A DNA stretch of 22,417 bases from a virus: positions 1 to 22,417 of IMG/VR virus record IMGVR_UViG_3300044535_003369; one strand, written 5' to 3'. Both the position numbers and the translations under genes were made by a program. Below the pieces are notes generated by a model. It was not told the origin of the DNA. It did no database searches and saw only the letters and a program-made list of their open reading frames with translations. Numbering within the stretch: position 1 is the first letter of the stretch; every line of letters starts with the position of its first letter. Shown in pieces: positions 10,879 to 21,186 of this stretch.

Positions 10879-11465
10879 AGCTTAATCGCCTTGGCAAATA
10901 CAACTCTAGATGCCATCTTAGAGGCGGCAATAATTGCAATAGGAGCAGCAACACTCAGGACAGTTCCTGCCCACATTCGTGGTTCAAGGTAGTTCCATTC
11001 CCAAAAATCAAAAGTGTGAAAAGCGTTAGCAAGAACAGCAATACCACCAAACATAATCATTCCAACAATAGCTCCAAAAGTTTTTTCTGGTTGTCCAGAC
11101 TCATTCATTCTAGATGCAAGAACAAGATAGGCAACCAAGAACAGCAGGTACATAAGCTCGATAAAGAAGAAGAACAGCCCTGCCATCCAAGCTTGAGATA
11201 GTCCAACAAATTGTGCTACAGCTGTAATTCCATTAAACGAAACAATTGCGGAAGAAATAAAAGCAAAGCCAATACCAATAAGCCAAGACCAAAGGATGAG
11301 CTTTTGATCAACCTGAATTCTTGGGGCACGTTTTGATTCCTGAAGCTCATATCTTTGACGCTTAGTATCTTCTACACGTCTAACAGTGGCTTCTACTCCA
11401 TTTGTATAATTTGCTCTCTCAGCAAGTAGTTTTTGTCTATCTCTAAATGACCTTGGATTACTCAT
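10875..11465 (-). CDS. Four-helix integral membrane protein, 196 aa
   Basis: A basic cytoplasmic N-terminus (SFRDRQKLLAER ... KRQRYELQESKR) of ~50 residues precedes hydrophobic helices at about 57-78, 92-118, 130-150 and 165-182. No transporter or enzyme motif is visible; the overall shape recalls SpdB/DUF2637-like four-span proteins of actinobacterial mobile elements, without a clear match. It is the first gene of the minus operon. Its position before two GT genes allows a role in anchoring the enzymes or in lipid-linked sugar handling, but this is speculative. Confidence 0.72.
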   Translation of the reverse strand: MSNPRSFRDRQKLLAERANYTNGVEATVRRVEDTKRQRYELQESKRAPRIQVDQKLILWSWLIGIGFAFISSAIVSFNGITAVAQFVGLSQAWMAGLFFFFIELMYLLFLVAYLVLASRMNESGQPEKTFGAIVGMIMFGGIAVLANAFHTFDFWEWNYLEPRMWAGTVLSVAAPIAIIAASKMASRVVFAKAIKL

Positions 11466-11474
11466 AATGATTAC

Positions 11475-11503
11475 ATTATACCACTAAAAAGAGCTTTGTC
11501 CAA
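11475..11503 (-). promoter_or_regulatory. Sigma70-like promoter of the minus-strand glycan operon
   Basis: On the minus strand TTGGAC (11498-11503) and TATAAT (11475-11480) are 17 bases apart. The -10 ends 9 bases before ATG 11465, so the transcript would have at most a few leader bases and no ribosome-binding site. It lies back to back with the Hsp20 promoter. Confidence 0.7.
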
Positions 11504-11507
11504 CTTA

Positions 11508-11516
11508 TGATATAAT
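11508..11516 (+). promoter_or_regulatory. Extended -10 promoter for hsp20
   Basis: TGA-TATAAT (11508-11516) is 59 bases before the chosen hsp20 start, leaving a leader of about 50 bases with CCTG/CAGG pairing (11524-11536) and AAGGAG. There is no good -35 at the normal distance. Confidence 0.5.
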
Positions 11517-11575
11517 ATATTTACCTGCCCAACAGGGGGGTATTTTAACTCGCTTAATACAAGGAGATGATATAT

Positions 11576-11965
11576 ATGGTTATTACAACACCATTTGGAG
11601 GACTTGGTCTAGATATTGACAAGTTCTTTAGCACAACACCAGCAACAAACACCTACCCACCATACAACGTTGTTAGGATTAATGACGACAAGATCGTAAT
11701 GGAGTTTGCGGTAGCTGGATTCAAAAAGGATGAGATCAGCATTACTGCTGAAAAAAATGTCCTATCTATAAACGCAGAAAAGCCAGACGCTGACGACAAG
11801 AAATACCTACATAAAGGTATTGCTGCTCGTAGGTTTACTCGCTCATTCTCGCTACCAGAATACTATGAGGTAGATTCCGCTGGATTTGAGGACGGTATTC
11901 TGTATGTTTATTTGGTAAGGAACATCCCAGAAGAGAAAAAGCCAAAATCAATTCGCATTCGTTAA
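11576..11965 (+). CDS. Small heat-shock protein, Hsp20/alpha-crystallin family, 129 aa
   Basis: An ATP-independent holdase chaperone. The alpha-crystallin domain spans about residues 27-120: VVRINDDKIVMEFAVAGF, ITAEKNVLSINAEK, a RRFTRSFSLPE stretch and DGILYVYLVRNIPEE, where GILxVxL is diagnostic. The C-terminus carries IRI, the IxI oligomerisation motif. I prefer ATG 11576 because AAGGAG at 11561-11566 lies 9 bases upstream. The alternative ATG 11567 touches that site. Phage sHSPs are known in T4-like cyanophages, where they may assist virion assembly. It is transcribed divergently from the glycan operon. Confidence 0.93.
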   Translation: MVITTPFGGLGLDIDKFFSTTPATNTYPPYNVVRINDDKIVMEFAVAGFKKDEISITAEKNVLSINAEKPDADDKKYLHKGIAARRFTRSFSLPEYYEVDSAGFEDGILYVYLVRNIPEEKKPKSIRIR

Positions 11966-11976
11966 AAACGATGATA

Positions 11977-12020
11977 TCCTATTGGTAGCTTAAGGTTTCC
12001 GAAAGGCCGCTACCTTAGGA
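11977..12020. ncRNA. Imperfect 11-pair stem-loop element
   Basis: TCCTA (11977-11981) and GGTAGC (11984-11989) pair with GCTACC (12009-12014) and TAGGA (12016-12020), with a 2/1 internal loop. The apical part (TTAAGGTTTCCGAAAGGCC) can fold further or offer an alternative TAAGG-CCTTA pairing. It sits between two convergent genes, so a bidirectional terminator is the simplest reading, but no U-run follows on either strand. A structured small RNA is the alternative. Confidence 0.5.
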
Positions 12021-12051
12021 GACAACCTGGGCATGTTGATAAAAGGCCTAT

Positions 12052-12768
12052 TTAATTATACCCAAGAAACTTTTTTTCAAATACATAAGGAACTTTGGGT
12101 TGATAATATTCGTTTGGATTTAAAAGGTTTTGTCTAGCACTTCTCTCTTGAAAAGTCATTTGATTAAAAAATGAAACAAAAGTAATTCTAGTACCACTTA
12201 TAACTGGATGAACCTTGTGTTCTAAATTATATGCAGAGGGAAATAAGAAAAGCTGGTTTGCTTTAGGTTTAATTTTAACTCCAAAATGAATAAAGTCTAG
12301 CTCTCCGCCTTCATAGCTGTCTGTTGGGTAATACACCATAGATGTTGTTCTGGGGGTTGCAAAAGAATCATCTGAGTGCATCCCAAAAAATTCACCAGGA
12401 CCTTCAAATTTTGTAATTCTCATAGACTCAATGCTGTGAGGCTCAAGGTTCCAGTGTGCTAGGTATGAATCTACTACCTCTTCAAATGCATTGGATATTT
12501 CTGGATGGTGTTGTATCCAGCATGTTTTGCTTTTTTTGCCATGATCTTGATCTAAATAATCTTCTCTTATCCACTTTACATCATCTTCAGGAGATGCCTC
12601 TGTTTCCCAAAAATTATCAGAGTCAATCTTATTTATAAAATCCATTGACTCAGGCCAAACATTATCATAAATGTGTACGCCTGGAATTGGAGAAGTAAAC
12701 TTAAACTTATTACCTTTTTTACTTGTTGTGACACTATTTTTGTGGTCTTCTAGCTTTGTGTGATGCAT
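12052..12768 (-). CDS. 2-oxoglutarate/Fe(II) oxygenase, 238 aa
   Basis: The P4H-like double-stranded beta-helix carries H131-x-D133 (GMHSDDS), distal H187 (HKVHPV) and R194 (SGTR), the 2-oxoglutarate-binding Arg, with GGELDF at about 154-159 as the loop usually preceding. Such enzymes hydroxylate protein side chains, small molecules or glycans. The upstream minus-strand GAGGAG is 3 bases before ATG, closer than ideal. It is a separate transcription unit from the glycan operons. Confidence 0.9.
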   Translation of the reverse strand: MHHTKLEDHKNSVTTSKKGNKFKFTSPIPGVHIYDNVWPESMDFINKIDSDNFWETEASPEDDVKWIREDYLDQDHGKKSKTCWIQHHPEISNAFEEVVDSYLAHWNLEPHSIESMRITKFEGPGEFFGMHSDDSFATPRTTSMVYYPTDSYEGGELDFIHFGVKIKPKANQLFLFPSAYNLEHKVHPVISGTRITFVSFFNQMTFQERSARQNLLNPNEYYQPKVPYVFEKKFLGYN

Positions 12769-12787
12769 AAGCTCCTCTTTATAAACA

Positions 12788-12796
12788 ATTATAGCA
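12788..12796 (-). promoter_or_regulatory. Extended -10 promoter for the 12768 oxygenase
   Basis: On the minus strand TGC-TATAAT spans 12796-12788, 19 bases before ATG 12768, leaving a short leader that contains GAGGAG. It overlaps the divergent promoter region of the 12817 gene, so the two are likely co-ordinated. Confidence 0.55.
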
Positions 12797-12801
12797 TAAC
12801 C

Positions 12802-12810
12802 TGATATAAT
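12802..12810 (+). promoter_or_regulatory. Extended -10 with leaderless ATG at 12817
   Basis: TGA-TATAAT (12802-12810) ends exactly 6 bases before ATG 12817, and there is no ribosome-binding site. The +1 would fall on or next to the start codon. Confidence 0.65.
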
Positions 12811-12816
12811 AATACT

Positions 12817-13350
12817 ATGCCATATAGTGTTGGAGAAAAAGGATCATACGGTTGCTCAGGCTACCCTGCAGTTAAGGATGACGATGGTCAGGTTATGGGT
12901 TGTCATGACACAGCTGAAGAAGCTGGGGCACAGATTGCAGCCATTGAAGCTAACGAAAAAGGTATAGGCATTAAAAATCCAGAGGAGTGGCCAGGAACTG
13001 CTATAAAGGCAGCGACAGATAAAGATGGTATGGGATCTGCTATTGGACAACCAGAACCAGCATCTAAAAAACCTTCTGCATTAAAGAAACCAAAGAAAAA
13101 GCCTAAGACAAGTGTAGGCGGCGCTGGAGGAGACCCAACTGGTGCCATCGCAACTACAAATGGCGGTTCGTCCATGGGAACTAAAGCTGATGAAAAACAA
13201 TCTCCATGCTGGGATGGCTATGTCCAGCGTGGAATGAAGCCAGGAGAAAATGGCAGAATGGTTCCTAACTGTGTTCCAGTAGCCAAGTCAGATTCAATCT
13301 GGCACAATTTCGGAAAAGATTATACATCTTCTACAACACTAAAATGGTAA
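12817..13350 (+). CDS. Small phage protein with two Cys-containing modules, 177 aa
   Basis: The N-terminal module (residues ~1-48) has YGCSGYPAVKDDDG, MGCHDTAEEAGAQIAAIEAN. This short two-cysteine fold is familiar as an accessory segment of phage prohead-protease or capsid-associated proteins. A Lys/Ala/Gly-rich disordered linker follows (KKPSALKKPKKKPK). The C-terminal module is SPCWDGYVQRGMKPGENGRMVPNCVP, a conserved CW.GY....K..GR.VPNCVP pattern of phage proteins. It may be a capsid decoration or packaging accessory. The basic linker could bind DNA. Exact role unknown. Confidence 0.78.
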   Translation: MPYSVGEKGSYGCSGYPAVKDDDGQVMGCHDTAEEAGAQIAAIEANEKGIGIKNPEEWPGTAIKAATDKDGMGSAIGQPEPASKKPSALKKPKKKPKTSVGGAGGDPTGAIATTNGGSSMGTKADEKQSPCWDGYVQRGMKPGENGRMVPNCVPVAKSDSIWHNFGKDYTSSTTLKW

Positions 13351-18496: not shown

Positions 18497-19392
18497 AAAA
18501 ACTATTAGTGGCTATCGTTTCTTCAATCCTTGTACTTCAACCAATCCAATCTTTGGCAATTGAAGGTGGAGAAGAGGCAAAGAATCATCCAAGGATTGTT
18601 TCAATCGTACTTTTTAACGGAAAAAACATGTATTGGGCATGCTCAGGATTTCTTTTCGCTCCCAGAATTGTCATTTCTGCAGGGCATTGTCAATTCAGGC
18701 CATTTAGAGATAATGAAAAGTGGCCAGACACCCAGGTCTTTATCGGCTATCCAGGAAAGATTCTTAGCACCCACCGAACTGAAATCGTGCAAGCTCAAAA
18801 GGTGTTCAGCTACAAGAGTTACAACCAGATTAGAAACCTTACAGCCTATAACAATAAGGATTTCATGATTGTGGTGACCAAAGAGCCTGTTGCAAAAGTT
18901 TCCTGGGCTACTGCGGCTACCGAAGCCACATTCAAGAACTTAATCCAAGAGAAGGCGTTTGTGACCATGGGGGGATACGGATTCTCATCGGAGAAAGAGA
19001 GGTCCATGAAAATGGAAGGGTACAAGTGGCCGAGAACACTGACTTTTCCCTTTGTAGATGAGAAGCATTACAACCTTGTAATGGACAATCGTCTTGACAA
19101 ACATTATTGGCCTGCATTTACTGACCCCTATGAAAAATGGGGTTGGACAAAAACCAGTAAGAAAACTGGTGCAGGATGTGATGGAGATAGTGGAGCTGGG
19201 ATTTTTACTGAAACTGCGAACCGTTTCGTCTATGTTGGGCTAAACGCATGGCCAATAGATAGTCCGAACTGTTCTAACAGAGGTAAGTGGAATATCCATG
19301 GAGGGCTTAACAGAGTTGATCCGATTTATTATCACAGTGAGCTGCTAAATAAAGCTATAAAATACGTCAATAAAAAATTCGGCGGTAAGTAG
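18493..19392 (+). CDS. Secreted trypsin-like serine protease (S1), 299 aa
   Basis: An N-terminal signal peptide (MKKLLVAIVSSILVLQPIQS) precedes the mature start IEGGEEAKNHPRIVS. The triad is H65 (SAGHC), D123 (NNKDFMIV) and S233 (GCDGDSGAG), standard for chymotrypsin-like enzymes, with a CSGFLF...AGHC disulfide. I place the start at TTG 18493, overlapping the sulfotransferase TGA. ATG 18478 is the alternative and adds 5 residues. Secreted S1 proteases are unusual in phages. GC content is higher than in the upstream oxygenase and sulfotransferase. It ends in KFGGK, a sequence echoed at 21168. Confidence 0.88.
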   Translation: MKKLLVAIVSSILVLQPIQSLAIEGGEEAKNHPRIVSIVLFNGKNMYWACSGFLFAPRIVISAGHCQFRPFRDNEKWPDTQVFIGYPGKILSTHRTEIVQAQKVFSYKSYNQIRNLTAYNNKDFMIVVTKEPVAKVSWATAATEATFKNLIQEKAFVTMGGYGFSSEKERSMKMEGYKWPRTLTFPFVDEKHYNLVMDNRLDKHYWPAFTDPYEKWGWTKTSKKTGAGCDGDSGAGIFTETANRFVYVGLNAWPIDSPNCSNRGKWNIHGGLNRVDPIYYHSELLNKAIKYVNKKFGGK

Positions 19393-19393
19393 A
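19378..19393 (+). repeat. Repeat copy A: TTCGGCGGTAAgTAGA
   Basis: The 3' end of the protease (FGGK-stop) plus one further base. It differs from copy B (21171-21186) at one of 16 positions. Downstream similarity continues as ...TTACTAC..., then a TTGACA promoter with a 17-base spacer. Confidence 0.65.
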
Positions 19394-19751: not shown

Positions 19752-19760
19752 TGGTAAAAT
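19752..19760 (+). promoter_or_regulatory. Extended -10 upstream of the NlpC/P60 leader
   Basis: TGG-TAAAAT (19752-19760) begins a leader of about 110 bases before ATG 19878. No convincing -35 is present at 17 bases, so this call depends on the extended -10 alone. Confidence 0.4.
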
Positions 19761-19767
19761 AGTAGTA

Positions 19768-19873
19768 CCCCTTTGAGATGGATGTGTCTGTCTCAAGGGT
19801 TTATAACTTAATAGGGTAAACCACCCACTAACGCTCAACGACCGAGTACTAACTACCAAGGAAAGGTAGGTCG
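19768..19873 (+). promoter_or_regulatory. Structured 5' leader of the NlpC/P60 gene (riboswitch candidate)
   Basis: Two clear structures. First, CCCTT-t-GAGA (19769-19778) pairs with TCTCAAGGG (19791-19799) with one bulge. Second, CGACC (19839-19843) pairs with GGTCG (19869-19873) and TACC (19854-19857) with GGTA (19865-19868), leaving AAGGAAA as the apical loop, so the ribosome-binding region sits in or beside a hairpin. In actinobacteria NlpC/P60 genes commonly follow c-di-AMP (ydaO/yuaA) riboswitches. Fragments here (GGGTAAACC, CAACGACCGAGT, CTAACTACC) only loosely recall that class. Confidence 0.5.
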
Positions 19874-19877
19874 CCAA

Positions 19878-20636
19878 ATGAAAAGAAAAAGGTTCATCGC
19901 AATTGGTATGATTGCACTGCTACTTACAAGTGGCACTGGAGTAGCTTTTGGAGCTATGATAGAAGCCACAGAGTCATCGAACATAGAACAACCAGTAACA
20001 CAAGTAACAAAGCCAACACCAGTAATTGATTCTCCAGTAACAACAGAAGTTATCTTCTCAGGGCCAGTGAAGGCTCTAGAGTTAGCAGTTGGGCCAGTCC
20101 TGGCTTCAGACGCACCACTTGTTGGTTCCGTTGATTGGATGGCTCAGGAAAAGGCAGCAAAGGATAAGCTCAAGTCCGAGGCTGAGAAAAAACAAGATGA
20201 GCTAGAGGCAGAGATTGCCAGACTGGAAAAAGTTGCCAGTGATACCAAGAAGTTGAATGAAACTTTAGTCTTGGTCAAAAAGCAAATTGGAAAAACACCT
20301 TGGGTCTTTAGTGGATCCACAACATCAGCCTGGGACTGCTCAGGAATGGTTATGTGGACCTATGCTCACCTGGGTGTTAGCCTAGAGCACAGTGCAACAA
20401 AACAAAGACTATCTGGAGCTATCGTCACCGTTCCTAAGATTGGCGACCTTGTCTCTTTCAATTATCAGAGCTATGGCAGTGCATACCACATTGGTATCTA
20501 CGTGGGTCCTGATGAGATGATCCATGCAGGCGGTAAGCCAGGGGATAGAACAGAAGTTGTTTCTATTAAGAAATGGGCTAAAGGCAACGGTAATAGCGAA
20601 GTCACCTATACCAGAATAATCGAGACAAACAACTAA
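19878..20636 (+). CDS. Secreted NlpC/P60 cell-wall peptidase, 252 aa
   Basis: Residues 1-26 (MKRKRFIAIGMIALLLTSGTGVAFG) form a signal peptide or anchor. A Pro/Thr-rich segment, then a Lys/Glu-rich coiled coil (about 89-130), precede the NlpC/P60 domain from about 130: AWDCSGMVMWTY with catalytic C154, AYHIGIYVG with H204 and EMIHAG with H216. It cleaves peptidoglycan stem peptides. The layout resembles actinobacterial RipA-type enzymes with coiled coil plus NlpC/P60. It precedes a lysozyme-like gene, so the pair could co-operate in cell-wall cutting. Confidence 0.92.
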   Translation: MKRKRFIAIGMIALLLTSGTGVAFGAMIEATESSNIEQPVTQVTKPTPVIDSPVTTEVIFSGPVKALELAVGPVLASDAPLVGSVDWMAQEKAAKDKLKSEAEKKQDELEAEIARLEKVASDTKKLNETLVLVKKQIGKTPWVFSGSTTSAWDCSGMVMWTYAHLGVSLEHSATKQRLSGAIVTVPKIGDLVSFNYQSYGSAYHIGIYVGPDEMIHAGGKPGDRTEVVSIKKWAKGNGNSEVTYTRIIETNN

Positions 20637-21170: not shown

Positions 21171-21186
21171 TTCGGCGGTAAATAGA
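21171..21186 (+). repeat. Repeat copy B: TTCGGCGGTAAaTAGA
   Basis: Lies 3 bases after the lysozyme-like TAA and in the same frame (AAG TTC GGC GGT AAA TAG = KFGGK-stop), so read-through of that TAA would give the same ending as the protease. It looks like a recombination or duplication scar from a shared module end. Confidence 0.65.

Follow-up and report, generated by a model that had tools for sequence, protein, structure and literature searches.

The region immediately upstream of the NlpC/P60 peptidase gene in the virus record IMGVR_UViG_3300044535_003369 (22,417 nucleotides, analysed over its whole length and called the window below) raises two questions. Is this region a structured regulatory RNA, and if so, is it a divergent member of the ydaO/yuaA class of c-di-AMP riboswitches or a different regulatory RNA, the two options offered in a preliminary description made from the window's letters? 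The description of a structured, phage-borne regulatory leader of the NlpC/P60 gene is strongly supported, by the covariation among related leaders as well. The leader as a whole (19752–19877) has a computed fold of −36.8 kcal/mol versus −28.5 ± 3.5 kcal/mol for shuffled sequences (z = −2.4; 3 of 200 shuffles were equally good). From its extended −10 element, transcription would be predicted to start near 19766, and a pattern search found no intrinsic terminator in the window leader. The features of the region are as follows.

19752–19760, + strand: predicted extended −10 promoter element TGG-TAAAAT, kept in close relatives (RTGGTAAAATAGTAGTA), from sequence comparison
19770–19799, + strand: P1, the 5′ hairpin, in which 19770–19782 pairs with 19787–19799 (13 bp); lineage-specific
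19803–19813, + strand: conserved unpaired element ATAACTTAATA, AYAACUNAAUA in relatives, from sequence comparison
19814–19826, + strand: P2, small hairpin GGGU-AAACC-ACCC; optional, from sequence comparison
19839–19873, + strand: P3, the core hairpin (covariance model match 19833–19879, 61.5 bits)
19839–19843 with 19869–19873, + strand: P3a, CGACC/GGUCG, covarying helix
19844–19846, + strand: 3-nt bulge GAG on the 5′ side of P3, from sequence comparison
19847–19850 with 19865–19868, + strand: P3b, UACU/GGUA, a pairing open to nearly all relatives
19851–19852 (AA) and 19861–19864 (GAAA), + strand: internal loop of P3
19853–19860 (C-G) and 19854–19859 (U-A), + strand: closing pairs of P3
19861–19866, + strand: Shine-Dalgarno core GAAAGG, invariant in relatives, 11 nt before the ATG, partly looped and partly paired in P3
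19878–20636, + strand: secreted NlpC/P60 peptidase, the gene proposed to be regulated (PF00877, E = 3.8e-16; N-terminal hydrophobic signal read from the sequence)

The universal core of the related leaders is one hairpin of 31–46 nt, P3, and in the window this core (19833–19879) ends at the NlpC/P60 start codon. Its cap is a variable loop, often GCAA, GUAA or GAAA, and its lower stem occurs naturally as CGACC/GGUCG, CGAUC/GAUCG, CAGCC/GGCUG, CAGCU/GGCUG, CAACC/GGUUG, UGACC/GGUCA, AGACC/GGUCU or CGACU/GGUCG. The closing pair is C-G in 34, A-U in nine and G-U in three of the 46 distinct P3 sequences, with zero exceptions. Much of what the preliminary description had read from the window holds, namely the folded leader, the 5′ hairpin and the CGACC/GGTCG fold (19839–19843 with 19869–19873), which is a genuine covarying helix. 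The inner TACC/GGTA pairing that it had placed within this fold is unconserved, as many relatives carry TAAC or an unrelated loop; what nearly all relatives can form is TACT/GGTA (19847–19850 with 19865–19868) together with a C-G, A-U or G-U closing pair at 19853–19860. Within the window itself, the TACC/GGTA variant is computed to be slightly more stable (−8.3 versus −6.9 to −7.4 kcal/mol) and may form there as an alternative pairing, and the computed minimum fold uses still other pairs, GCUC/GAGU with CUACC/GGUAG. P3 alone is moderately stable, at about −5 to −10 kcal/mol by computation, and when it is folded in isolation as a single sequence its advantage over shuffles is mild (z about −0.5 to −1.4). 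In the loci L014 and L208 the middle of P3 is lost, yet a stem still spans a Shine-Dalgarno sequence.

Covariation among related leaders, which the preliminary description had named as a check, is present in the lower stem and closing pair of P3. Two-sided changes occur in the 46 distinct sequences at four of the five lower-stem pairs and at both apical pairs, the closing pair included. The covariation score of P3 is 0.185, versus 0.080 for shuffled sequences and at most 0.055 with the partner strand slid, scores that by the tool's own warning are open to inflation by the relatedness of the sequences. Most relatives were found with patterns holding parts of P3, and the invariance of those parts there is by construction; the compensatory evidence is drawn from the sets that a protein search or a free-stem pattern brought in. 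In the free-stem set, at least 4 bp could form in 22 of 23 distinct flank pairs, as against a mean of 6.8 and a maximum of 14 complementary pairs of 23 in 2000 partner shuffles. Insertions and deletions in the two strands are coupled as well: one, two or three extra bases on the 5′ side are matched by zero, one or two A on the 3′ side. These combinations (1/0, 2/1 and 3/2) account for 277 of 277 literal-stem occurrences, a count that includes the same contigs fetched repeatedly, and for 43 of 43 distinct ones. Such coupling is hard to explain otherwise than by a continuous helix. The length of the bulge is fixed.

A protein search gave 17 phage loci, with leaders alignable in most. A leader-derived pattern gave 20 and then 23 contig stretches, an alignment search added more divergent relatives, a core-based pattern found at least 119 stretches of IMG/VR viral contigs, and the final pattern, with the inner sequence fixed and the stem free, found 66. 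All readable genes behind P3 encode NlpC/P60 proteins with a DCSG motif, and these proteins go down to ~38% identity over the domain relative to that of the window. The covariance model finds one strong P3 per locus or record (10–154 kb), the only second copy being an identical one near the other end of one contig; across 14 records and 0.9 Mb of loci it finds no P3 in front of any other gene. When phage NlpC relatives were collected by protein sequence only, P3 stood exactly at the start codon in 70 of 80; the contig end truncates one of the remaining ten, another has a simplified hairpin, and a different leader is common to the last eight. No P3 was found by exact pattern in 84,980 bacterial and archaeal species genomes or by the covariance model in 80 bacterial NlpC loci, and the model search of 394 Actinomycetes genomes gave none bar one weak match, which sits inside a solute-binding protein gene and is read as chance. 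A blastn search of 50,697 sequenced phages returned only short chance matches.

Two observations on individual loci were made in the course of these searches. Another conserved leader, CACACCATTGACAAATACAAAGGCTGGCTGTG...TTGGATAGGAGGTT, stands just upstream of NlpC in the stead of P3 in L212, L221, L224, L225, L227, L249, L255 and L256. The record IMGVR_UViG_3300043438_002264 (L002 and L015) has two NlpC loci with the same leader, at ~7.7 kb and 123.7 kb of its 124.5 kb, which terminal redundancy or an effect of assembly could explain.

P1 and P2 do not belong to the core: only close relatives keep P1, and about one third of the sequence clusters have no P2. P1, the CCCTT-GAGA hairpin of the preliminary description, is real but confined to close relatives; beyond them it is swapped for other hairpins or absent, inside the window's lineage its covariation is modest, and in other lineages the hairpin at its place resembles a terminator of the upstream gene. 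The P2 site is occupied in relatives by unrelated hairpins, e.g. UGUC/GACA, UGAGAG/CUCUCA or GUGCGA/UCGUAC, and the shuffle test for P2 is significant in only 8 of 38 clusters. The AYAACUNAAUA element (9–11 nt) lies 0 to ~45 nt 5′ of P3, in most cases close to where the transcript is predicted to begin, and is absent from the GGGAGAACCC lineage (L095, L100, L106 and L148). The minimal leaders, those of L343 and L364, consist of AACUAAAUA and P3 only. Several relatives have a terminator-like hairpin 5′ of the AYAACUNAAUA element. Seven loci (L076, L089, L103, L120, L200, L242 and L243) present a compact terminator-promoter overlap upstream of the leader, in which the 3′ arm of the upstream gene's terminator-like hairpin doubles as the apparent extended −10 element (e.g. 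TGTGCTAGGGT) of the NlpC promoter.

Three further candidates in the leader were rejected. A leader peptide might have started at the ATG at 19778, but the short frame beginning there is unconserved in relatives. Two alternative pairings can form only in the window's lineage and are lost in L014 types and others: GTAGTAC at the 5′ end with GTACTAAC over a long range, and GCTC with GAGT in a hairpin whose loop holds CGACC.

P3 lies over the ribosome-binding site. The preliminary description had put this site, taken as AAGGAAA, in the loop of its second fold; the site is indeed largely looped, and GAAAGG is preferred over AAGGAAA as the site itself because it is the invariant part. It lies 7–13 nt before the first ATG in nearly all occurrences, and is complementary to the extended 16S tail found in Gram-positive bacteria. 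The predicted duplex of the GAAAGG region with this tail has −9 to −16 kcal/mol, versus −6 to −9 kcal/mol for the hairpin in most variants. Within P3 the GG half of GAAAGG is paired and the GAAA half is in the internal loop, and in the computed ensemble, too, the GAAA is mostly unpaired and only the GG is paired, so the occlusion of the ribosome-binding site may be partial. The strand between GAAAGG and the ATG is the 3′ arm of the stem, and initiation should therefore need the stem to open. A translational cis-regulatory hairpin is recognised as an evolutionarily supported helix containing the ribosome-binding site, and P3 is such a helix. In L352, L355 and L381, a frame of 4 codons (GUG AAC UAU GAA UAA) starts with a GUG directly behind the P3 stem and overlaps the NlpC start AUG, possibly a case of translational coupling.

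As to the second question, the premise that c-di-AMP riboswitches precede actinobacterial NlpC genes is sound. In Corynebacterium glutamicum c-di-AMP controls nlpC translation via a riboswitch (PMC9960051). The Rfam search used here found RF00379 in two bacterial NlpC loci, with 64 bits in that of Streptacidiphilus (L330), where the riboswitch (979–1139) lies 7 nt before the ATG (1146) of the NlpC-domain gene. The L330 match shows that the expectation was reasonable and that the method was able to detect RF00379, for which the membership threshold is a gathering score of 38 bits. In the window, none of the 4227 models of Rfam 15 matched at gathering score; at E ≤ 10 the isolated leader and the related leaders gave only sub-threshold chance matches, and RF00379 was never among them. 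Both RNAs are structured leaders of NlpC/P60 peptidase genes, and RF00379 precedes actinobacterial nlpC and rpf genes. However, RF00379 is a two-domain aptamer of ~134 positions, whereas P3 is a 31–46 nt hairpin over the ribosome-binding site, has no Rfam similarity and, unlike RF00379, is found only in phage contigs. A divergent ydaO/yuaA riboswitch would share with P3 its target gene family, as the Streptacidiphilus locus illustrates, but its signature is missing from the window and its relatives at E ≤ 10 despite the working positive control, and the conserved core is too small and different; we reject the membership and give it next to no credence. Of the earlier interpretation the regulatory leader stands and the ydaO/yuaA class falls, and its second option, a different regulatory RNA, gains support.

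We propose instead, with a probability of roughly two in three, that a phage-specific RNA, the leader, regulates the NlpC/P60 peptidase gene in cis, and that P3 within it would act as a translational switch set by a trans factor. P3 is conserved, covaries, is associated with one gene and is positioned over the ribosome-binding site; that its folding represses translation is what we infer from this arrangement, and the putative factor that would set the switch, like its kind, is our guess. The 3′ strand of P3 carries the ribosome-binding site GAAAGGuAGGU and extends almost to the start codon; folded P3 would deny the site to the 30S subunit and open P3 would allow NlpC/P60 to be translated. The weakness of P3 (about −5 to −10 kcal/mol) would be as expected of a hairpin meant to open, and the conserved bases that do not pair, those of the bulge and of the AA/GAAA internal loop, resemble a surface for recognition; taken together, these two properties make a translational switch set by a trans factor most likely. 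A phage or host protein would be a more probable factor than a small molecule, and the switch would time or limit a cell-wall-cutting enzyme during infection. Operators and expression platforms that sequester the Shine-Dalgarno sequence are found among phage operator hairpins and small translational riboswitches. In these a weak hairpin over the ribosome-binding site is opened or locked by a trans factor, as proposed for P3, to which they have no sequence relation. What counts against the regulatory reading is the mild advantage of isolated P3 over shuffles, the use of other pairs in the window's computed minimum fold, an occlusion that may be partial, and the finding that about one in ten phage relatives of the NlpC protein is without P3.

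Behind control by a protein, our first choice, we place an initiation element free of regulation and a small riboswitch of a new kind. Strongly conserved ribosome-site sequences, GGGATAGGAGCCC and GGGAAAGGACCCC, occur in cluster K mycobacteriophages and Microbacterium cluster EF phages (PMC3203893, PMC7302621), where the Start Associated Sequences are 13 bp long and stand before different genes, 10–19 per genome (PMC3203893; cluster EF, PMC7302621). P3 resembles these and the Extended SAS in its unusually conserved ribosome-site sequence, in its extended 16S complementarity and in its inverted-repeat character. It might thus be a signal-free translation-initiation element of this kind, setting a fixed rate or protecting the mRNA, and the fit of its GAAAGG to the 16S tail agrees with such a role. 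Nevertheless, P3 is longer, covaries as a helix and is a single copy tied to one gene family; in its records of 10–154 kb it stands once and always before NlpC/P60, not 10–19 times before different genes, and a fixed rate would need neither a covarying helix nor coupled indels. We consider this reading possible, with odds of about one against three. Somewhat less likely is a new small translational riboswitch, whose bulge and AA/GAAA loop would recognise a cell-wall-linked metabolite or second messenger and, on binding it, hold the Shine-Dalgarno region in place. Its attraction lies in nucleotide conservation beyond the needs of pairing, the fixed bulge length, the gene specificity and the precedent of a bacterial nlpC under a translational c-di-AMP riboswitch (PMC9960051); its difficulty lies in a core that is a single 31–46 nt hairpin without a universal second helix (P2 being absent in many), in the failure of any Rfam riboswitch to match and in a ligand that is putative only. 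A specific form of this idea, a phage-only riboswitch class of ~45 nt that includes AYAACUNAAUA, responds to a host metabolite of the cell wall or of second-messenger signalling and sets the timing of the peptidoglycan peptidase in environmental, probably actinobacterial, phages, would be more doubtful again.

Two other explanations are much weaker. The marginal computed stability of P3 and its imperfect helix over the ribosome-binding site would suit an RNA thermometer in which heat melts the hairpin and frees the site, but such RNAs conserve weak pairing rather than fixed unpaired bases, and there is no biological reason for a tie to one phage gene, which makes a thermometer very improbable. 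Slightly less credible still is conservation at the DNA level, as an operator for a DNA-binding protein, or from recent common ancestry only. An imperfect inverted repeat beside a promoter and several nearly identical close relatives could be cited for it; however, the G-U changes in the stem (CGACU/GGUCG and CAGCU/GGCUG) keep the symmetry of RNA and not of DNA, the position of P3 is tied to the start codon and not to the promoter, and the proteins of its carriers diverge to ~38% identity over the domain.

P3 looks like an RNA family not described before, one that covaries strongly, is restricted to phages and goes with one enzyme type only. A published screen of candidate structured RNAs may contain a motif named after NLPC-P60; a literature search for an RNA motif of this name found nothing, and if P3 were that motif in a form undetected by Rfam, its novelty would fall. 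It opens a way to study the control of a cell-wall hydrolase in phages whose hosts are probably actinobacterial; for the same task some actinobacteria use c-di-AMP, and these phages a different RNA. At 31–46 nt it is a simple target for direct biochemical tests.

The phage host is probably actinobacterial, judging from the WhiB-like gene present in the window and from the best relatives of the window's peptidase, which are actinobacterial. A lysozyme-like gene (SLT_3) comes next after the NlpC/P60 gene. The 16-nt sequence TTCGGCGGTAARTAGA occurs twice in the window where none is expected by chance, at 19378–19393, the end of a trypsin-like gene, and at 21171–21186, just past the lysozyme-like gene, and the paired copies suggest a duplication or recombination scar. 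In the viral-classed contig of L344, an ORF near the NlpC gene (about 11019–13187 of the reverse strand reading) resembles catalase-peroxidase (KatG). In that of L148, an ORF looking like the phosphate-binding protein PstS (10949–11998) lies after the NlpC gene, on the same phage contig as a terminase-like ORF.
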